Shown here: positions 7,306-43,372 of the stretch, one piece after another | How positions within the stretch are numbered: the stretch's first letter is position 1 | Layout: each line of letters starts with the position of its first letter | Source of the DNA: an uncultured bacterium | Lineage (GTDB): Bacteria; Patescibacteriota; Minisyncoccia; Phycocordibacterales; UBA2100 | Assembly (NCBI GenBank): GCA_903854215.1 | Contig: CAINVT010000051.1 | Location: 1 to 43,533, forward strand | DNA length: 43,533 nucleotides | Reading direction: 5' to 3' | Notes under the pieces: model-generated | Database searches by the model: none | What the model saw: only the letters and a program-made list of their open reading frames with translations | Told to the model about the DNA's origin: nothing | Position numbers and translations under genes: made by a program

Positions 7306-8400
7306 TTACCCGATCATTGTTCCGCGCATCTGGTCGATCTTGAACGTTATCTTGCGGAAGGAGTCCGCCGCGAAGGCGTAGGTACCACCCTGGTAGTACA
7401 TGAGGAGATACGCAGCTGAGACAGCAACAGCGATAATCGATAGCCAGTAGATCGTGTCGCCCGCTGCCCCGAAGTCGAAGCCTGTGTACGGAATCTGCGT
7501 CAACGAGACTGCCGGATATGTCGTCGGATAGTTCATAGGATATGAATAATTATTATTTTGATAAGCATAGGAAGGTGTGTAATAGGTCGACGGATAGGTA
7601 TAGGTCGGCGCAACGTAGTTGTAACCGTAATTCTGATACTGATATCCCGAACGATTCGCATCGTAGCGATATGAAGAGTTGTACTCCGGTGTCTGATAGC
7701 CGCTATTGTAGACAACTGGGTACTGGTTCGAACTGCTGTTCACCGTCTGTGTGACGGGTGCAGAATTGGTGTTCGTGTTGGTATTCGTGTTCGTATTGGT
7801 ATTGTTGATTACGATACCGCTGGCAGTCGTCTGATAGACACAATTCGGATAGATACCGGTCGTACCGGAAGGGCACGAAAATGTCGGAGCGACACAACTC
7901 GGATAGGTGCCCGTATAACCGGTCGGACACGAATAGGTCGGTGCGACACAATTAGGATAGGTACCAGTGTAGCCCGTCGGGCAGCTATAGGATGGAGGAG
8001 TGCAATTCGGGTACGTACCGGTATAACCCATCGGACACGAATAGGTCGGTGGCGTGCAGTTCGGATACGTACCGGTATAACCCATCGGACACGAGTAGCT
8101 TGGCGGCGTACAATTCGGATACGTACCGGTGTATCCGATCGGACATTGATATGTAATCGGCGTGCAATTTGGGTACGTCCCTGTAGTACCGGTCGGACAG
8201 GAATATGACATTGCGTAACCTACGCCGCCTCCTGACGATCCGCCACCGCTTGCGGAACCGGAGCTACCCGAACCGCAACAGCCGCTACCAGAATCATCGG
8301 CGTGAACGGAGACAATAGGCATCAGGACTGCCGCCGAAACGGCAATAACGCCGATTACAATGAGAAATCCCCACGTACGCCCTAAAGTGATTTTTTTCAT
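7306..8400 (-). CDS. Exported Cys-repeat surface protein with IPYTG membrane module
   Basis: The 364-residue product has an N-terminal signal peptide or anchor (ITLGRTWGFLIVIGVIAVSAAVL), a short Cys/Gly/Ser-rich piece, then seven tandem 18-residue repeats (residues about 68-193) of the type CPxGYTGTYPNCTPPTYS with two Cys each. Next come an INNTNTNTNTNTNTN linker, APVTQ, a Tyr/Asn/Ser-rich stretch, and the C-terminal module SLTQIPYTGFDFG plus one membrane helix and a basic tail. The same linker and module occur in the protein at 9165, so they are paralogous surface proteins. IPYTG resembles a sortase sorting motif, and a sortase gene lies 7 kb away; actual processing is inference. Disulfide-stapled repeats are plausible. 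Confidence 0.85.
   Translation of the reverse strand: MKKITLGRTWGFLIVIGVIAVSAAVLMPIVSVHADDSGSGCCGSGSSGSASGGGSSGGGVGYAMSYSCPTGTTGTYPNCTPITYQCPIGYTGTYPNCTPPSYSCPMGYTGTYPNCTPPTYSCPMGYTGTYPNCTPPSYSCPTGYTGTYPNCVAPTYSCPTGYTGTYPSCVAPTFSCPSGTTGIYPNCVYQTTASGIVINNTNTNTNTNTNTNSAPVTQTVNSSSNQYPVVYNSGYQTPEYNSSYRYDANRSGYQYQNYGYNYVAPTYTYPSTYYTPSYAYQNNNYSYPMNYPTTYPAVSLTQIPYTGFDFGAAGDTIYWLSIIAVAVSAAYLLMYYQGGTYAFAADSFRKITFKIDQMRGTMIG
7822..8199 (-). repeat. Seven 54-bp tandem coding repeats
   Basis: Each unit encodes an 18-residue CPxGYTGTYPNC module. The units are very similar at DNA level, so copy number could change by recombination or slippage. Confidence 0.85.
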
Positions 8401-36021: not shown

Positions 36022-36152
36022 GCAGAATGGCCTTTATTCCCACGGACGCATGGCCTCAGCGGCTGCCATTCATCAGCTCCTTTACTTTGTGTTCAGTAAA
36101 TGCACAATGCGAATGACTGATCTTTTACAGCCTCACTGAAGGGAAGCGCACG

Positions 36153-36719
36153 ATGCTCACTCATGAGATCGATCCATTTTTGCGGGAACTCACAAGCCGT
36201 TTCGGACCCGTCCGGCGGCTATCCGACACAACGAACACTACGATACGGTCAACCAAAAAAGATCTAGACAGCATCGTACAAGCGGTGCTCGGGGAATTCG
36301 AGATCACATCTACCCATGTCGTGGCTCGGGTAGGAAATTCTTGCAGAGGAACCGAGAGCGTCGCTAGAATTACCTGGCGAGAACAATCACAGCTGGTTGT
36401 TGCAGGGAAGTTTGAATTCAGGCGGATAGTGGTTGAGTTTCATGCTGGGTTTTTGAAGGCTGTCGGCTCCGAACACATCGCGGTGGCTACGGCAAAACTT
36501 GTCAGTCGCATGCTGTTACGCGCGACGAGCGATCCACTCCGCGAAGAACTCATCGCAGCAGATATTCTTGCGATGACACGTGGTTTCGGTGCGATGTATG
36601 CCACTGGCCATTCATATACAGACGGGCCGTGGTTTCAACGAAAAAGAATGAGTACCAGCGATCTACCGCCGGATGAAATCGGCATGATTATCGCGAAGCT
36701 CGCCCAAGATGCAAAATGA
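36153..36719 (+). CDS. Hypothetical protein
   Basis: The 188-residue product seems soluble with mixed strands and helices (LTHEIDPFLRELTSRFGPVRRLSD; ARITWREQSQLVVAGKFEFRRIVVEFHAGFLKAVGSEHI; VATAKLVSRMLLRATSDPLREELIAADILAMTRGFG). No family is recognised. AGGGAAG about 8 bases before the ATG is a ribosome-binding site, in contrast to the leaderless rplY that diverges from it. The stop codon lies inside a strong 13-bp hairpin. Probably a species-specific gene. Confidence 0.65.
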   Translation: MLTHEIDPFLRELTSRFGPVRRLSDTTNTTIRSTKKDLDSIVQAVLGEFEITSTHVVARVGNSCRGTESVARITWREQSQLVVAGKFEFRRIVVEFHAGFLKAVGSEHIAVATAKLVSRMLLRATSDPLREELIAADILAMTRGFGAMYATGHSYTDGPWFQRKRMSTSDLPPDEIGMIIAKLAQDAK

Positions 36720-36746
36720 GCGCGCGGACCGAAGGTCCGCGCGCTC
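36718..36746 (+). terminator. Perfect 13-bp hairpin at the stop of the gene at 36153
   Basis: GAGCGCGCGGACC-GAA-GGTCCGCGCGCTC, a 13-bp stem with a 3-base loop that starts inside the stop codon. Only TAACTTT follows, so the U-tract is poor. Confidence 0.7.
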
Positions 36747-36805
36747 TAACTTTAAAAACAAAAACGAAGCTTTGATTTTTTCCAAACTTCACAAGTGAAT
36801 CAGGC

Positions 36806-37051
36806 CTACGGCTTTCTATTCTTCCACCGCGGTGCGAAGCGAATCAAAAACGTATACAAACGCGCAAGCAGCGGATTGGTACCCTTGCTAACCATCGATT
36901 CATACGCACGCCGCTGGAACTCTTTGAGATCATTGCCCAAGTAACATAATTTCCCATCTTTATAACAATAACTGCAATATCTATCGGACTCTCGGACCCC
37001 GGGGTCCTTCGAAAACGGCATCATGCAACTTTCACACATTTGATTTGCCAT
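36806..37051 (-). CDS. Small zinc-ribbon protein
   Basis: The 81-residue product starts MANQMCESCMMPFSKDPGVRESDRYCSYCYKDGKLCYLGN. Two CxxC pairs (Cys6/Cys9 and Cys26/Cys29) form a zinc ribbon as in the Zn_ribbon_2 family of putative zinc-binding proteins; the C-terminal half is a basic helix (RRAYESMVSKGTNPLLARLYTFLIRFAPRWKNRK). Function unknown; a protein-protein or nucleic-acid adaptor role is possible. TATAAT 8 bases before the ATG predicts a leaderless mRNA. Confidence 0.82.
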   Translation of the reverse strand: MANQMCESCMMPFSKDPGVRESDRYCSYCYKDGKLCYLGNDLKEFQRRAYESMVSKGTNPLLARLYTFLIRFAPRWKNRKP

Positions 37052-37059
37052 ATGCGGTA

Positions 37060-37065
37060 ATTATA
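37060..37065 (-). promoter_or_regulatory. -10 of the zinc-ribbon gene
   Basis: TATAAT, 8 bases before the ATG at 37051. Confidence 0.6.
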
Positions 37066-37100
37066 TACCTCTGATTATGGGCGGCTATGCAAGCGGTGGA

Positions 37101-37637
37101 TTATGAAAAGTGCTCAGGATTCTCGATATGCATGAGCGCCATGACGACCGCCGCCTTGTTATATTCCGTTCGATTGGTTCGACCCTTGGTGAAAATACCG
37201 ACAAAACCTTCGTGTTCTCCGAGCTTTTCGTGCTGTGTCAGACCCGCTGCTTTCATCGCCTGGCTGCCATCCATTCCTTCGTTCAGGATCTTATCAAGGA
37301 CTTTTTTCGGCCACTCATACGCTTGCGAAAGTCCCATATGAATTTGTTTGCCATCGAAGACGGCACATACCGCGACTTCCATATATCCGGATTTTGTTTG
37401 CGGAACCTTCATCAATCCACTCTCTATACCGAATCCATATTCATGACCAACATACGCTTGTTTGGCCCGATCGACGGCACCCGCGACGGTTTCATCAATA
37501 TCTTTTGGATGACCGAATTGGTCAACATTGACTGCAACCCCCTCAACCTCTGCACCAGCGAACATCGGGTAATCACGGAGTAATTCCGTGATCGCATCAA
37601 CCTTCGTCTTATTCTTCGATCCGACACCGATTTTCAT
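37101..37637 (-). CDS. YjjX/DUF84-like inosine/xanthosine triphosphatase
   Basis: Removes damaged purine nucleotides such as ITP and XTP before they enter DNA or RNA. The 178-residue product starts MKIGVGSKNKTKVDAI, the nucleotide-binding start shared by ITPase-fold enzymes, and contains VDQFGHPKDIDETVAGAVDRAKQA, YGFGIESGLM (the GxExG-type catalytic loop) and GRTNRTEYNKAAVVMAL at the C terminus, as in the YjjX group. The length is normal. TGTTATACT 6 bases before the ATG at 37637 fixes the start, leaderless. Confidence 0.88.
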   Translation of the reverse strand: MKIGVGSKNKTKVDAITELLRDYPMFAGAEVEGVAVNVDQFGHPKDIDETVAGAVDRAKQAYVGHEYGFGIESGLMKVPQTKSGYMEVAVCAVFDGKQIHMGLSQAYEWPKKVLDKILNEGMDGSQAMKAAGLTQHEKLGEHEGFVGIFTKGRTNRTEYNKAAVVMALMHIENPEHFS

Positions 37638-37643
37638 ACGGAG

Positions 37644-37652
37644 AGTATAACA
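37644..37652 (-). promoter_or_regulatory. Extended -10 of the YjjX-like gene
   Basis: TGTTATACT with 6 bases to the ATG at 37637. Confidence 0.6.
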
Positions 37653-37694
37653 AAAAATCCGCGTTCCATAATCGAGATTATACAATCTAACGAT

Positions 37695-37726
37695 CCAACG
37701 CGACGTGCCAGGCACGTCAATGTTGG
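37695..37726. repeat. REP-type palindrome, left of the RAYT gene
   Basis: GACGTGCCAGGCACGTC (37702-37718) is a perfect palindrome around one base, extended by CCAAC and GTTGG on the outside. The core GTGCC-T/A-GGCAC recurs on the other side of the transposase gene. Confidence 0.8.
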
Positions 37727-37731
37727 AAATT

Positions 37732-38361
37732 CTATGGTGTAATATTTTCTTCGTCTTTCGGAATCATTACGTCTCCAAAGATACAGCTTTTCGATACCGC
37801 GTGGCGCACCTTTTCCAGTTCCTCTGCTGGTTCCTTCTGATGAATCCATTCGACATATCTTCGCGGCAAATCGACTGGTGGATTTCCGATTAATGATCGT
37901 TCTTTTGTAGTCCCATCAATGCGTCTATAGGCGCTTCCCCAACGCCAATCTTCCGGTTTTTCAACGAGATGTGCTCGTACCGGATTACGTTCAATATATT
38001 TTAGTACGGTGAGTAGGTGGGCATCCTCTTCAATCAAAAAAGATTTATAACGCCCTTGATACAGGTGACCATCTCCGATGGTTTGCTTGCGTGTGTGATG
38101 TCGCAACGCATGAGACGTGCCGAGCCAGTGCATTGATTGCGAAAGATCACCGTCACGCCGTGGATAGAGTAGTAGATGCCAATGGTTAGGCATAACAACA
38201 TACGCAAGAATGCGCATATCGTATTCTTCCTTGAGTTCTAGGAGCAAATACTCAAAGTCCCTGTAATCATCAGGCGATTTGAAAATCGGAACACGCCCGT
38301 TCGCACGATTGATTACGTGATAGACCAAGCCGCCAATATCGACGCGTTGACCCCGCCCCAT
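37732..38361 (-). CDS. REP-associated tyrosine transposase (RAYT, IS200-like Y1)
   Basis: Single-strand DNA transposase that acts on REP palindromes. The 209-residue product has the Y1/HUH fold: GLVYHVINRANGRVPIF at the start, the HUH motif MPNHWHLLLYP, GHLYQGRYKSFLIEEDAHLLTVLKYIERNPVRAHLVEKPEDWRWGSA with the candidate catalytic Tyr in KYIERNP. REP palindromes with core GTGCC-GGCAC flank it in inverted orientation. The start at 38361 fits the family and has TGCAATAAT 7 bases upstream; the longer open frame to 38505 runs across the right REP. The gene seems intact and may still be active. Confidence 0.92.
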   Translation of the reverse strand: MGRGQRVDIGGLVYHVINRANGRVPIFKSPDDYRDFEYLLLELKEEYDMRILAYVVMPNHWHLLLYPRRDGDLSQSMHWLGTSHALRHHTRKQTIGDGHLYQGRYKSFLIEEDAHLLTVLKYIERNPVRAHLVEKPEDWRWGSAYRRIDGTTKERSLIGNPPVDLPRRYVEWIHQKEPAEELEKVRHAVSKSCIFGDVMIPKDEENITP

Positions 38362-38368
38362 GGAGATG

Positions 38369-38377
38369 ATTATTGCA
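38369..38377 (-). promoter_or_regulatory. Extended -10 of the RAYT gene
   Basis: TGCAATAAT with 7 bases to the ATG at 38361. Confidence 0.5.
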
Positions 38378-38433
38378 TAACTCTTATACATGCAACAACA
38401 TGTGTCTATCACTACGACACATATTTTCCGAAG

Positions 38434-38453
38434 TTGACGTGCCTGGCACCGCC
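38434..38453. repeat. REP-type palindrome, right of the RAYT gene
   Basis: TTGACGTGCCTGGCACCGCC, core GTGCCTGGCAC (38439-38449). Its first 16 bases match the reverse complement of the left REP exactly (TTGACGTGCCTGGCAC). Confidence 0.8.
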
Positions 38454-38461
38454 TGCTTACA

Positions 38462-39088
38462 TCAAACATTGAGCGCACCGGTCGTAGCATCAAGAAACGA
38501 ATCATACGAGAGCATCTTCGTCTTCCATGACTCGACGAAGGCCAAAAGCTCCGTTCGCGCGATTATATCCTGCATTTTTTCTATCTTTTCTGCGAGCTTC
38601 GGGGCGATCATCTCAATATCCTTCTTTTCGAGCATGCCATTGAAGAATTTGTAGTGTGTCACCTCGAGGTAATCAGCAACCTTCGAGATATGGGCTTCAT
38701 CAGAAGCCGATTCGAGAATCTCCTTGGTAAGCGCGAGTACCTCATCCTTGTTGCTGAAATAGCCGGATAAGAATTTCTGATTCTCTTCTTCAAACTGCTT
38801 CGCATAGGTGCGAGCCTGGGGATTGGCCTTCGCGTAATACATGCTGATATCTCCGCCGAACAATTCACCGACGTCGTGCAACAGACTGAATTTCACGACC
38901 TTATAGGTATCGATCTTCGCACCTTTGCTATTCACGAGCTCGCATAACTGCCACGCGAGCATGGTCACGAGATAATGATGTTCAGCGAGATTGCCAAGCC
39001 GCGCATTGCCGCCGGCAATCGCGTAACCGTACTGCGGCTGGACGCGCGTCATCTGGAGGAGATTGATAAGTTCAACGACTGTTTCCAT
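38462..39088 (-). CDS. HD-domain phosphohydrolase, YfbR/HDDC2-like
   Basis: Probably a 5'-nucleotidase acting on deoxynucleoside monophosphates. The 208-residue product has the metal-binding HD pattern: first His in NLAEHHYLVTMLAWQLCE, then LLHDVGELFGGDIS, and a later Asp in VADYLEVTHYKF. The N terminus METVVELINLLQMTRVQPQYGY fits the family, which sets the start at 39088. TACCAT lies 7 bases upstream. The gene ends next to the right REP of the transposase, and its last codons are only 9 bases from it. Confidence 0.85.
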   Translation of the reverse strand: METVVELINLLQMTRVQPQYGYAIAGGNARLGNLAEHHYLVTMLAWQLCELVNSKGAKIDTYKVVKFSLLHDVGELFGGDISMYYAKANPQARTYAKQFEEENQKFLSGYFSNKDEVLALTKEILESASDEAHISKVADYLEVTHYKFFNGMLEKKDIEMIAPKLAEKIEKMQDIIARTELLAFVESWKTKMLSYDSFLDATTGALNV

Positions 39089-39177
39089 ACGTTCAATGGT
39101 AGCGGATAAAAGCGCTTGGTGCCAGTTTTTTCTGACATCTGTCTGTCCCTTTCGTTTTTTTGGAGTACTCTTCCGAG

Positions 39178-39720
39178 ATGGCGCAAGCATTCGTCTACCA
39201 CCGCGTCGTAGAAAATATGCGTGGGACTATCCTCTATCCGCTCAACCAACTCAAGACAATATTCCCCGACGTCTACGCTGAGCACGTTAAAAAATACGAA
39301 GGCCGCGAACATGTGCTTGAAACAAGAATCCCCGCTCCACTTGATTGCCTATGGAATGATGCATTGCACTTCACTGCGGTACACCCGATGGTTTTATTTC
39401 GAAATCTTGAGTCAGCTGGGTTTGATGCGAAAGAACTCGCTTGGAAACGCTGGTTCAAAATTCCGATTACATTTTTTGATCCAGCACATACGATCGTTTG
39501 CTTGTATCGTAGAGATATTCGAATCGTCCCCGACGCGAGAGATTTCCAACCATATATATCAGGGAAAATCGGGGAATATGCAACCGTTCCGCCGGATACG
39601 ATCGAATATTACAAAGAGCAGTTCAAGCTTGGTAAGCGTCCACTCTTTTTTCACCACGTGCCGCACATACTGTTCAAAGGGACTATCGAAACGAGGGGAC
39701 TCGAAACTGTTGAACTCTGA
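39178..39720 (+). CDS. Conserved-looking hypothetical protein
   Basis: The 180-residue product starts MAQAFVYHRVVENMRGTILYPLNQLKTIFPDVYAEHVKKYEGREHVLETRIPAPLDCLWNDALHFTAVHP and has a regular mixed fold with FFDPAHTIVCLYRRDIRIVPDARDF and a GTIETRGLE end. I cannot name the family; it looks like a DarT- or phage-type accessory only by general impression, so no function is given. It diverges from the HD gene with a gap of 89 bases. The start at 39160 is an alternative. It converges with the acetyltransferase at 39722, with one base between the stops. Confidence 0.72.
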   Translation: MAQAFVYHRVVENMRGTILYPLNQLKTIFPDVYAEHVKKYEGREHVLETRIPAPLDCLWNDALHFTAVHPMVLFRNLESAGFDAKELAWKRWFKIPITFFDPAHTIVCLYRRDIRIVPDARDFQPYISGKIGEYATVPPDTIEYYKEQFKLGKRPLFFHHVPHILFKGTIETRGLETVEL

Positions 39721-39721
39721 C

Positions 39722-40165
39722 CTATCGACTCAACACGAGCAGTAATCGTGGCTCACCTTCTCCCCAATAGTTTTCGTGTCGAGACTCGACTACGAAGCCG
39801 AAACTCTCGTAGAGTTTGAGTGCCGCGACATTGTCAGGATGTGTGACCAACTCAATCCGCTTCGCATCGTTCATGTCATCGAGAAGTTTCTGTAAAACGA
39901 TTCGCCCGATCCCCTTTCCTTGGAATTTCGGCACAACCATGAGACCGCTGATATAAAAAGTATCCGCTCCCCGCGGTTCATAACTCGCGTTTCCAATGAC
40001 TTCCCCATCCATTTCGCTCAAAAGAACCGTCCCGTTTTTCAAATCTTCGATCCAGTCATTGGCATCCAATTCTGCGGAATACGTAGAATTCCCTGAAACG
40101 GTCTGTTCGAGAGAAATCAAGAGGGGGATGTCGTCTTGGGTTGCAATTTTATATTCAAGTTTCAT
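39722..40165 (-). CDS. GNAT-family acetyltransferase, second
   Basis: The 147-residue product has the GNAT fold: ISGLMVVPKFQGKGIGRIVLQKLLDDM with the acetyl-CoA loop QGKGIG, then RIELVTHPDNVAALKLYESFGFVVE, as in RimI-like enzymes. The start at 40165 lies 2 bases after the aldolase stop, so it is the second gene of an fba-acetyltransferase pair and is likely translated by coupling. Substrate unknown. Confidence 0.88.
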   Translation of the reverse strand: MKLEYKIATQDDIPLLISLEQTVSGNSTYSAELDANDWIEDLKNGTVLLSEMDGEVIGNASYEPRGADTFYISGLMVVPKFQGKGIGRIVLQKLLDDMNDAKRIELVTHPDNVAALKLYESFGFVVESRHENYWGEGEPRLLLVLSR

Positions 40166-40167
40166 TT

Positions 40168-41022
40168 CTACATTCCTGCAAACAGCCGTATATATTTCTC
40201 TGTCATCTTTTCAACTTCCGTCACACCTTCCGCGAGGAATTTGTAGGGTGCAATTTCTTTGGCATCGGCCGCGAGTGAGGCTTCGATACCTTTGCGATAG
40301 GCGATACGGATATCGGTGTTGATGTGGACGATCGAGCAGCCTAATTTCCCTACTGTTGCCAAATCCGCATCAGATGATCCCGAACCACCATGCAATACGA
40401 GGGGGATGCCGACGGCGCTGCGGATCGCTTCGATGCGCACGAGGTCGATCTTGGGCTCGCCGCCACCAATGAGACGTCCGTGCATCGTGCCGACTGCGGG
40501 GGCGAGCATATCGACGCCGGACTCGCGGACGAACAGCGCCGCTTCTTCAACGGTCGTGAGATCTTTGTCCATATCTTCCGGCGGAACTTCAAGCAATTTG
40601 CTGGATGTGCCGATGCGTCCGATCTCACCTTCGACGAGCGTTCCTTTTCCGCTTGCGCGCGCGTATTCGACGACATTGCGTGCTGTCGCGATGTTTTCTT
40701 CCATCGGGAGATGGCTGCCGTCGAAGATGACCGAGTCGAATCCGGCATCGATGACTTCTTTGCAACCGTCGAGCGAATAGGTGTGGTCGGCATTGAGATA
40801 TACCTGGACCCCCGCTTCGCGCGCCGCGCGCACGAGTGCCGCTATATTGCGCATACCGAAGAATTTTCGTTCACCTTCTGAAACTCCGACGAGCACCGGC
40901 ATGCCGGCCGCCGCCGCGGCGGCCAGGACCGCATTGAACTGGTTCGAATCCGAAACGTTAAAATGCCCGAGTGCGATCTTACCCTCCCACGCGGCTTCCA
41001 CCGCTTCTTTAAGTGTTTGCAT
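40168..41022 (-). CDS. fba: Class II fructose-bisphosphate aldolase
   Basis: Zinc enzyme of glycolysis that splits fructose 1,6-bisphosphate into glyceraldehyde 3-phosphate and dihydroxyacetone phosphate. The 284-residue product has VYLNADHTYSLDGC (Asp79, His80), LVEGEIGRIG, AVGTMHGRL (His181) and VLHGGSGSSD (His211), the zinc and catalytic pattern of class II enzymes (KbaY/GatY/FbaA group; substrate could also be a related sugar bisphosphate). The TGCTATAAT promoter lies 7 bases upstream of the ATG. A decayed copy of its 5' end lies at 42295-42350. The PfkB kinase gene nearby is probably its ancient divergent neighbour. Confidence 0.94.
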   Translation of the reverse strand: MQTLKEAVEAAWEGKIALGHFNVSDSNQFNAVLAAAAAAGMPVLVGVSEGERKFFGMRNIAALVRAAREAGVQVYLNADHTYSLDGCKEVIDAGFDSVIFDGSHLPMEENIATARNVVEYARASGKGTLVEGEIGRIGTSSKLLEVPPEDMDKDLTTVEEAALFVRESGVDMLAPAVGTMHGRLIGGGEPKIDLVRIEAIRSAVGIPLVLHGGSGSSDADLATVGKLGCSIVHINTDIRIAYRKGIEASLAADAKEIAPYKFLAEGVTEVEKMTEKYIRLFAGM

Positions 41023-41029
41023 GGCTGAA

Positions 41030-41038
41030 ATTATAGCA
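41030..41038 (-). promoter_or_regulatory. Extended -10 of fba
   Basis: TGCTATAAT, 7 bases before the ATG at 41022; leaderless. Confidence 0.7.
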
Positions 41039-41078
41039 TGATGCTAATAATGAAGCGTTTCAGACGCAGTCGAGCAGG

Positions 41079-42257
41079 CTAGTTAACGACCTGCCCTGAT
41101 TCATATTTATGACTCTTATCATACGCTTCGTATAAGTCTCCCTTGCTGTAGTTATTCTCAACCACTCCAAATGTGACCGGGTCGGCACCCTGAATAATTT
41201 GTCCATTATAATAAACTGCATTTTTATCGGCTGCATATTCTTCACCTGGAGAGGCACTTTCGTCTCCACCTGAAATCTCATCTTGCCAATAGTTCCGCGT
41301 AAAGATCCTGAACGTGGCAGGGTCGGCAACAATTGAGCTTACGGTGACAGTAGGAGCATTTATTGATTCAAAAAAGACTTTGCGCGAATCAGTGAAATAC
41401 AGCTCATTCAAAGCGGAAAAAGTCTTGAGATCCGCGTTTGGAACCATGATAAGCGAGGCAGGATCCCCATCAGTCACCCACACATGATTCTTATCGCGCG
41501 CGACGCCCGTATCGCCATCAAATGTGAACGTAGCAGGATCGGCACCTTTCAAAAGAGATCCCGAATCAAATACATGGACAGCATCTTTCGCAAATACATA
41601 CCCAAACTCAGCTGCATACGGGGAATCCATAGTAGATGCAATTATTGAAAACGTCTGCGGATCCGCTCCAACAACAATGTTTTGTTCGAAGAAAATATGG
41701 CGTGCATCCTCCGCGTATGGATAGATGTCGCCGTTTGCAGTGAAGGTCGAGAGGTCTACATTCGGAATATCTCCAGAGATTCTCGGGTACCCATAGCCCC
41801 CGTAGTATGCTGCGTATTGATCTTTGCCATAACAATGCCAAAGGGAGGTGCCTTCCGAAGACGTCCCGACCGGAACGAATGTATCTGGATCGGCACCGAT
41901 AGCATCACCGCTCCCGACGTAAACATCGTTTTTGTCTTTAGTAAAACAAGCGTTCGTTGTAAAGCTTTGATATGTCGCAGCATCAATCCCCGACGGAACA
42001 TAGTCGTAGGGGCCGACGACAATAGGTACCCAGTGTCCTGCGTCATTCTGTGCTCCAGTGACAGGTGACTGACCCAGGTGAACAGTGCCGGCCGTTGTCG
42101 AGCTCAATAGCATCAACTGATCACGTTGCTGATCGGACGGAAATTGTCCAGTCGGCTGGCTCAATCGACTCAAAAACCACCAAGCGGACATGGCAGTGAG
42201 CAGGATCATTAGAATGCCCAAGAGAACAATACTTTCGAGTCCCCTTTGATCTTTCAT
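41079..42257 (-). CDS. Membrane-anchored DKNYY-repeat protein
   Basis: The 392-residue product has one N-terminal membrane helix (IVLLGILMILLTAMSAWWFLS) and an outer part with repeated DKNYY-family units, each giving a D/AKD/DKN.V followed by a Tyr/hydrophobic strand and a GADPxTF turn: KDKNDVYVGSGDAIGADPDTF, DARHIFFEQNIVVGADPQTF, AKDAVHVFDSGSLLKGADPATF, and AADKNAVYYNGQIIQGADPVTF. The family is known from surface or exported proteins and its function is unclear. The ATG at 42257 overlaps the stop of a 23-codon leader frame by ATGA. That leader and its promoter derive from the 5' end of an aldolase gene. Confidence 0.82.
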   Translation of the reverse strand: MKDQRGLESIVLLGILMILLTAMSAWWFLSRLSQPTGQFPSDQQRDQLMLLSSTTAGTVHLGQSPVTGAQNDAGHWVPIVVGPYDYVPSGIDAATYQSFTTNACFTKDKNDVYVGSGDAIGADPDTFVPVGTSSEGTSLWHCYGKDQYAAYYGGYGYPRISGDIPNVDLSTFTANGDIYPYAEDARHIFFEQNIVVGADPQTFSIIASTMDSPYAAEFGYVFAKDAVHVFDSGSLLKGADPATFTFDGDTGVARDKNHVWVTDGDPASLIMVPNADLKTFSALNELYFTDSRKVFFESINAPTVTVSSIVADPATFRIFTRNYWQDEISGGDESASPGEEYAADKNAVYYNGQIIQGADPVTFGVVENNYSKGDLYEAYDKSHKYESGQVVN

Positions 42258-42325
42258 ATGTTCTTTAAAGTGCTTGCTGTGTGAATATCAGCAGGCAGCC
42301 TCCACCGCTTCTTTGGTGTTTGCAT
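42254..42325 (-). pseudogene. Fossil 5' end of fba acting as leader frame
   Basis: Starting with ATG CAA ACA, this 23-codon frame matches the first 10 or so codons of fba with a one-base deletion after codon 3, then continues into unrelated sequence and stops with TGA overlapping the ATG of the DKNYY gene (ATGA). At base level 42295-42350 aligns with about 40993-41043 of fba, start codon and -10 included. It reads as a duplicated promoter and start region that now serves as a coupled leader frame. Confidence 0.75.
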
Positions 42326-42332
42326 GCAAAAG

Positions 42333-42341
42333 ATTATAGCA
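42333..42341 (-). promoter_or_regulatory. Duplicated fba promoter for the DKNYY gene
   Basis: TGCTATAAT with 7 bases to the fossil ATG at 42325, identical in element and spacing to the fba promoter at 41030. Confidence 0.65.
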
Positions 42342-42370
42342 TCCGGATGCCTCCTTTACACACAACATTG

Positions 42371-42379
42371 TGATAGTAT
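42371..42379 (+). promoter_or_regulatory. Extended -10 of the PfkB-family gene
   Basis: TGATAGTAT with 6 bases to the ATG at 42386; leaderless. Confidence 0.6.
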
Positions 42380-42385
42380 TGGAAA

Positions 42386-43372
42386 ATGACATACGATTTT
42401 GTCGCTATCGGCGATATTACTACTGATGCCTTTATCAAGCTCAAGGATGCGGAAGAATTGATGGATCATGGCGTGCGCGAACTCTGCGTGCGCTTCGGAG
42501 ACAAAGTTCCGTACGAAGATGTGACCGAGATTCGTGCTGTCGGCAATGCTGCCAATGCCGCGGTCGCCGCACATCGTGTGGGACTCAACTCGGCACTGGT
42601 CGCCTGGGTCGGCGATGACGAACACGGCAAGGAGACACTCGAGACGTTGCGTGCGCAAGGCGTTGCCGACGAATTCATGACGACTGACGCAGGTAAGCAC
42701 ACCAACTACCACTATGTCTTGATGTACGGACCAGAGCGCACGATCCTCATCAAGCACGAGCATTTCGACTGTCATTTGCCAAACTTCGCCGAAGCGCCGA
42801 AGTATCTCTACTTCTCTTCGATCGCAGAAAATTCAGAACCGTTTCATCACGAAGTCGCCGCATATTGTGCGACGCATCCGGAAACCAAACTCGTCTTTCA
42901 GCCGGGAACATTCCAGATCAAGCTCGGCGCCGAGGAGCTTAAGGATATATATGCCGTGACTCACATTTTCTTCTGCAACAAAGAAGAAGCGCAGACCATC
43001 CTCAAAACGACCGAGACTGATGTGAAAAAACTGATGGAAAGCCTCCGCGCACTCGGACCGAAGATCGTCGTCGTCACCGATGGCCCAAAAGGTTCTAACA
43101 TCCTCGACGACACTGGTGCATGGCACATCCCTATGTATCCCGATCCGGCACCGCCGGTTTCTCGCACAGGAGCAGGGGACGCGACCGCCTCGACGACCGT
43201 CTCATACATCATCAAAGGTATGCCCGCAAAAGACGCACTGCTGCGCGGCATCATCAACGCCGCGTCCGTCGTCCAAAAAGTCGGTGCACAGACCGGATTG
43301 CTTACCGATACGGAAATCGAAGCATGGTATGCGAAGCGCCCGGCAGATTTCGATGCGACTCCGCTCGTGTAA
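42386..43372 (+). CDS. PfkB/ribokinase-family sugar or nucleoside kinase
   Basis: Phosphorylates a sugar or nucleoside with ATP. The 328-residue product starts YDFVAIGDITTDAFI, has the N-terminal family region with GNAANAAVAAHRVGLNSALVAWVGDDEHG, and the C-terminal signature RTGAGDATASTTVSYIIKGM, with catalytic Asp265 and the anion-hole GAGD. KIVVVTDGPKGSNI precedes it. The family includes ribokinase, adenosine kinase and 1-phosphofructokinase; the exact substrate is not evident, but proximity to a class II aldolase supports a sugar-phosphate role. It is leaderless and divergent from the fossil aldolase start. Confidence 0.9.
   Translation: MTYDFVAIGDITTDAFIKLKDAEELMDHGVRELCVRFGDKVPYEDVTEIRAVGNAANAAVAAHRVGLNSALVAWVGDDEHGKETLETLRAQGVADEFMTTDAGKHTNYHYVLMYGPERTILIKHEHFDCHLPNFAEAPKYLYFSSIAENSEPFHHEVAAYCATHPETKLVFQPGTFQIKLGAEELKDIYAVTHIFFCNKEEAQTILKTTETDVKKLMESLRALGPKIVVVTDGPKGSNILDDTGAWHIPMYPDPAPPVSRTGAGDATASTTVSYIIKGMPAKDALLRGIINAASVVQKVGAQTGLLTDTEIEAWYAKRPADFDATPLV

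Follow-up and report, generated by a model that had tools for sequence, protein, structure and literature searches.

An Aldolase 5′-End Stub with a Putative Leaderless Promoter beside an Inserted DKNYY Gene in a Candidate-Phylum Bacterium

Introduction

Insertion of SXT/R391 leaves prfC with an intact 5′ end, restored by the element's own copy. The integration site of this element is the 5′ end of prfC itself (PMC4489591). Genes can also be acquired by homology-facilitated illegitimate recombination, which has been described for transformable bacteria and in the displacement of Vibrio T6SS effectors (PMC5361080; PMC3240628). As to expression, 5′-terminal AUG frames of Escherichia coli can influence the downstream gene (PMC4965119). 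In Corynebacterium glutamicum, a synthetic leaderless bicistronic design works with a TAATG overlap and needs a Shine–Dalgarno (SD) motif inside its fore-cistron (PMC10367133).

Here, we compare with these systems a locus from a candidate-phylum bacterium with a reduced genome, in which leaderless starts are widespread and whose nearest relatives having named records are Candidatus Kaiserbacteria. The window, that is, the whole stretch of 43,533 nucleotides analyzed, is one entire contig of a 1.1-Mb draft genome in 73 contigs. It contains the remnant of the 5′ end of a class II fructose-bisphosphate aldolase gene (fba), hereafter the stub, upstream of a gene of the DKNYY family. The stub is a genuine but modest gene scar, and its promoter probably serves the new neighbor.

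Results and Discussion

A Lineage-Specific Gene between fba and Its Divergent Kinase

On the minus strand, the stub is followed by the DKNYY gene, the intact fba gene, and a GNAT gene, and a PfkB-family kinase gene is divergent from them (table 1). The intact fba is the sole full-length copy in the genome. The kinase start carries a leaderless-type −10, TGATAGTAT. The DKNYY gene is an intact frame of 392 codons, whose product has an apparent N-terminal membrane anchor; no solved structure was found for this protein.

In the nearest species compared (G033; fba 89–90% and kinase 84% identical), the kinase and fba genes are directly divergent, with 108 bp and no DKNYY gene between them. The two genes are likewise adjacent and divergent in most fba-holding relatives across the order. 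We detected the DKNYY gene in none of the other 51 genomes among the 52 of the genus that were searched. The class and order samples gave only weak, partial matches, and neither a donor nor another DKNYY gene beside fba was found in them. The GC3 of the DKNYY gene is 0.455, versus 0.62 for each neighbor. Given the divergent G033 layout, the absence from the other genus genomes, and the low GC3, we consider the DKNYY gene as inserted. A reading of this DNA from the sequence alone, hereafter the sequence-only reading, had proposed that fba faces the kinase directly where the DKNYY gene is missing, and had explained in this way the position of that gene between the two. Both proposals are borne out by the ancestral order of the pair and by the lineage-specific distribution of the DKNYY gene.

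Table 1. Coordinates of the Features at the Kinase–fba Locus
Feature	Position	Strand	Evidence or remark
fba, intact class II fructose-bisphosphate aldolase gene	40168..41022	−	PF01116, E 8.5e-75
ATG of intact fba	41022-41020	−	
Gap between −10 and ATG of intact fba	41029-41023	−	7 nt
Extended −10 promoter TGCTATAAT of intact fba	41030..41038	−	Sequence; survey of relatives
Inserted gene, DKNYY family	41079..42257	−	PF13644, Pfam E 3.5e-30
23-codon frame MQTPKKRWRLPADIHTASTLKNI, ending TGA within ATGA	42254..42325	−	Sequence; overlap not beyond chance
TGA of the 23-codon frame	42256-42254	−	Overlaps the DKNYY ATG
ATG of the DKNYY gene	42257-42255	−	ATGA at 42257-42254
Aldolase 5′ stub (promoter and first 12 codons, codon 4 minus one base)	42292..42342	−	Homology to 40988-41039
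ATG of the stub	42325-42323	−	
Gap between −10 and ATG of the stub	42332-42326	−	7 nt
Extended −10 TGCTATAAT of the stub	42333..42341	−	Identical to fba promoter; 7 nt before ATG
PfkB-family kinase gene, divergent partner of fba in relatives	42386..43372	+	PF00294, E 6e-38

The 5′ End of fba Recurs Upstream of the DKNYY Gene

A genome-wide search with positions 42240-42420 returned exactly one further match, the 5′ end of fba (81% identity, E 2.1e-6). The local alignment score of the stub is 56, and the best of 3,000 dinucleotide-preserving shuffles reached 28. The stub is also 82.7% identical to the fba of G033. These results confirm that the 5′ end of fba recurs at this place and that the stub derives from it, as the sequence-only reading had put forward. 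The homology had been traced over 42295-42350; it is real, and its extent has to be revised, because it ends at about 42342. From roughly 13–17 bases upstream of the start, it runs through codon 12 (to about 42292) and then stops. The proposal that promoter, 7-base spacing, and start are the same in both copies holds for the extended −10 TGCTATAAT, the length of the gap, and ATGCAAACA, all common to the stub and fba; the bases of the spacer itself differ at five of seven positions.

Codon 4 of the stub has lost one base (CTT/CTC to CC). The deletion and the resulting shifted frame of 23 codons, with its TGA overlapping the DKNYY start as ATGA, were both correctly reported. Without this deletion, the stub frame would stop at codon 13. 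The draft is fragmented and the missing base could be a sequencing error, which would favor an assembly artefact or a chance resemblance. However, the alignment score is twice that of the best shuffle and the E value is genome-wide. Furthermore, a single sequence duplicated by the assembler would not show the 10 differences found between the two copies in 52 columns. We regard an origin of this kind as extremely improbable.

The Stub Has Diverged as a Working Aldolase Gene Would

Over the 52 columns, the stub differs from the G033 fba at 9 positions, and the two fba genes differ from each other at 7. Between the stub and the intact fba, 8 of 16 free sites (spacer and third codon positions) are changed versus none of 29 constrained sites, defined as the −10 and the first and second codon positions of the aldolase 5′ end (P = 6e-5). 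Polarization by G033 assigns to the stub's own branch changes at 5 of the 16 free and 0 of the 29 constrained sites (P = 0.004). Within codons 5–11, read in the aldolase frame, three of seven third positions have changed versus 0 of 14 first and second positions (P = 0.026), and these untouched positions are out of frame with the leader start. As the aligned columns number only 52, this test rests on few changes. The confinement of the changes to aldolase-neutral sites argues for divergence inside a working aldolase gene that was cut recently. Constraint exerted by a new promoter could account for the preservation of the −10, not for that of the out-of-frame aldolase codon positions.

The sequence-only reading had described the stub as a decayed duplicate. 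According to such a scenario, the arrival of the DKNYY gene went along with an in-place duplication of the fba 5′ end; the duplicate later degenerated, apart from its promoter and start, which were retained for the new gene. The direct orientation of the two copies on either side of the DKNYY gene and the identity of their −10 and ATG are in its favor. However, the stub is no nearer to the fba of its own genome than to that of G033 (10 vs. 9 differences), and neutral decay would not have spared the first and second codon positions. We consider in-place duplication unlikely, and the description as a decayed copy is not sustained. An exchange between diverged alleles would explain the origin of the stub better than duplication and decay.

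With moderate confidence, we propose that a diverged aldolase allele was cut by the insertion of the DKNYY gene and that the stub is the 5′ end that stayed behind, with a promoter that is probably live for this gene. The ancestral allele would have been directly divergent from the kinase gene. A recombination event would have fused codon 12 of this allele to the DKNYY gene, on the far side of which it would have left a complete aldolase 5′ end of slightly different sequence. This insertion of DNA from a relative was probably one-sided, anchored by homology in fba and illegitimate at the other end. A nonhomologous join at one end is consistent with the arrest of the fba homology at codon 12 and with the absence of the DKNYY gene from the other genus genomes. 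The displacement of T6SS effectors in Vibrio is similar in that incoming DNA is anchored by homology at one end and joined without homology at the other, a remnant of the resident gene persisting beside the new one (PMC5361080; PMC3240628). In contrast, the remnant in Vibrio is a whole immunity gene, whereas here it is a 5′ end with its promoter, and the homologous junction was not located. A mosaic scan of fba gave no signal, its third-position divergence from G033 being flat (0.37–0.63). An old working paralog is a less likely source of the stub because no genus relative was found to have a second full fba. One genome (G020) has a second short fba match on its contig C9, which we rejected as a stub: since it is located at the edge of a contig and has the same first residues as the fba of another contig, it represents a split gene.

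Two versions of the 5′ end of one gene flanking an insert, with the intact version on the far side, are also the footprint expected of an element that integrates at the 5′ end of fba, makes this end whole again with a copy that it carries, and is later reduced to a single gene. As with SXT/R391, a conserved gene has received the insertion at its 5′ end (PMC4489591). In both cases, this end is intact afterwards. Unlike SXT/R391, the 1.25-kb insert (41040-42291) carries no integrase and consists of the DKNYY frame only. As no similar insertion at fba was seen in relatives, we judge such an element very unlikely.

In a sister species (G035), a 5′ stub of the PfkB-family kinase gene, 13 codons long, adjoins fba on contig C10 (JACROD010000012.1, L056:4780-4830). 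It is about 89% identical over 45 bp to the kinase gene, the working copy of which lies elsewhere, on contig C3. No recognizable −10 was found at this kinase stub. It is the mirror image of the aldolase stub of the window and suggests that truncated gene starts arise repeatedly as a by-product at the kinase–fba locus. Since G035 keeps this stub, such ends have been left more than once, and they need not be functional. We found no fba stub upstream of the relocated kinase gene in G023, G026, or G035.

A Leaderless-Type Promoter Likely Serves the DKNYY Gene

Leaderless starts appear to be widespread in this genome. Among the 100 sites listed of 191 TATAAT–ATG matches, the gap is 6–8 nt in 31, where about 10 would be expected (P = 1e-8). 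Of 92 gene starts in the window and in selected relatives, 29 are preceded by a −10 at the leaderless distance, versus 141 of 3,635 ATGs overall. SD-like motifs precede 16 of the 92 long-gene starts in this set, compared with the 29 preceded by a leaderless-type −10. In relatives, most fba and kinase starts have a TA...T hexamer 5–9 nt upstream (mostly 6–7), often with TG ahead of it. The spacing in relatives and the genomic peak at 6–8 nt give strong comparative support for leaderless transcription of fba, in line with the leaderless-type aldolase promoter and start previously proposed. With TATAAT placed 7 nt before ATG, the stub has the leaderless-type spacing (~6–8 nt) and preserves what we predict to be the leaderless promoter/start unit of fba.

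Of the promoter candidates upstream of the DKNYY gene, the −10 of the stub is the strongest, and it matches perfectly. The DKNYY start has neither an SD motif nor a good −10 of its own; an SD motif is likewise missing from 14 of the 15 genes that occupy operon positions in the set of loci considered above. A two-hexamer scan of the region detected no sigma-70-type promoter with both hexamers, terminator matches are at background level only, and an Rfam scan of 40900-42500 gave no matches. It is quite likely that the stub promoter serves the DKNYY gene. As the stub kept its own promoter, the DKNYY transcript most likely comes from it and would start at, or within 1–2 bases of, the stub ATG. The 23-codon frame would then be the first start met by ribosomes, and the overlapping DKNYY start may be reached.

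The overlap between this frame and the DKNYY start had been interpreted as a leader peptide coupled to the DKNYY gene. The ATGA overlap exists; it is not beyond chance. We counted 257 ATG frames located 26–110 nt upstream of long genes in the window and related loci, and 28 of them (11%, about one in nine) likewise end on the next start; among those counted are some true upstream genes and a few loci that occur more than once. The kinase start is overlapped in the same manner, as ATGA, by a frame of the opposite strand (MQKIIASGCLLYTQHCDSIGK, 42324-42389) that begins in the palindrome GCATGC, probably by chance. The predicted fold of the leader RNA is unremarkable (z −1.07).

These frequencies, like the promoterless kinase stub of G035 that serves nothing evident, would fit a passive scar without a role for the DKNYY gene. 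In that case, this gene would be silent or weakly transcribed from another site, and the 23-codon frame would be accidental. We consider this possible and rather doubtful. Against it stand the perfect −10 of the stub, the lack of a two-hexamer promoter in the region, and the intact state of the DKNYY frame.

A more elaborate role is conceivable: the stub may be a gene fossil that has become a leaderless bicistronic device of natural origin, in which the frame opened by the deletion would load ribosomes at a 5′-terminal AUG and pass them on, through ATGA, to an SD-less gene. This proposal is tentative and, in our opinion, somewhat improbable; translation of the 23-codon frame and its coupling to the DKNYY gene are weakly suggested by the arrangement. 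As in the E. coli cases of 5′-terminal upstream AUGs and leaderless upstream ORFs, an AUG is predicted at the mRNA 5′ end and a short frame precedes the main gene. The main gene has an SD motif in E. coli, whereas none is seen at the DKNYY gene (PMC4965119). The C. glutamicum design similarly combines a leaderless promoter with a short fore-cistron whose stop overlaps the next start. In contrast to its TAATG and internal SD motif, the stub frame has ATGA and contains no SD motif for the DKNYY gene (PMC10367133).

Together, promoter and start codon occupy about 20 bp, and a broken gene end of this kind would hold all that is needed to express what lands behind it. Such a compact unit may offer newly acquired genes a simple route to expression.

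Two further observations concern other parts of the window. The fba–L25 interval (36100-40165) forms a second insertion zone, with GNAT, HD-domain, and IS200-like (Y1) transposase genes; its G033 counterpart contains response-regulator-like and cupin-like genes, named from their sequence. Finally, seven imperfect repeats with a spacing of 54 bases lie at 7783-8214.
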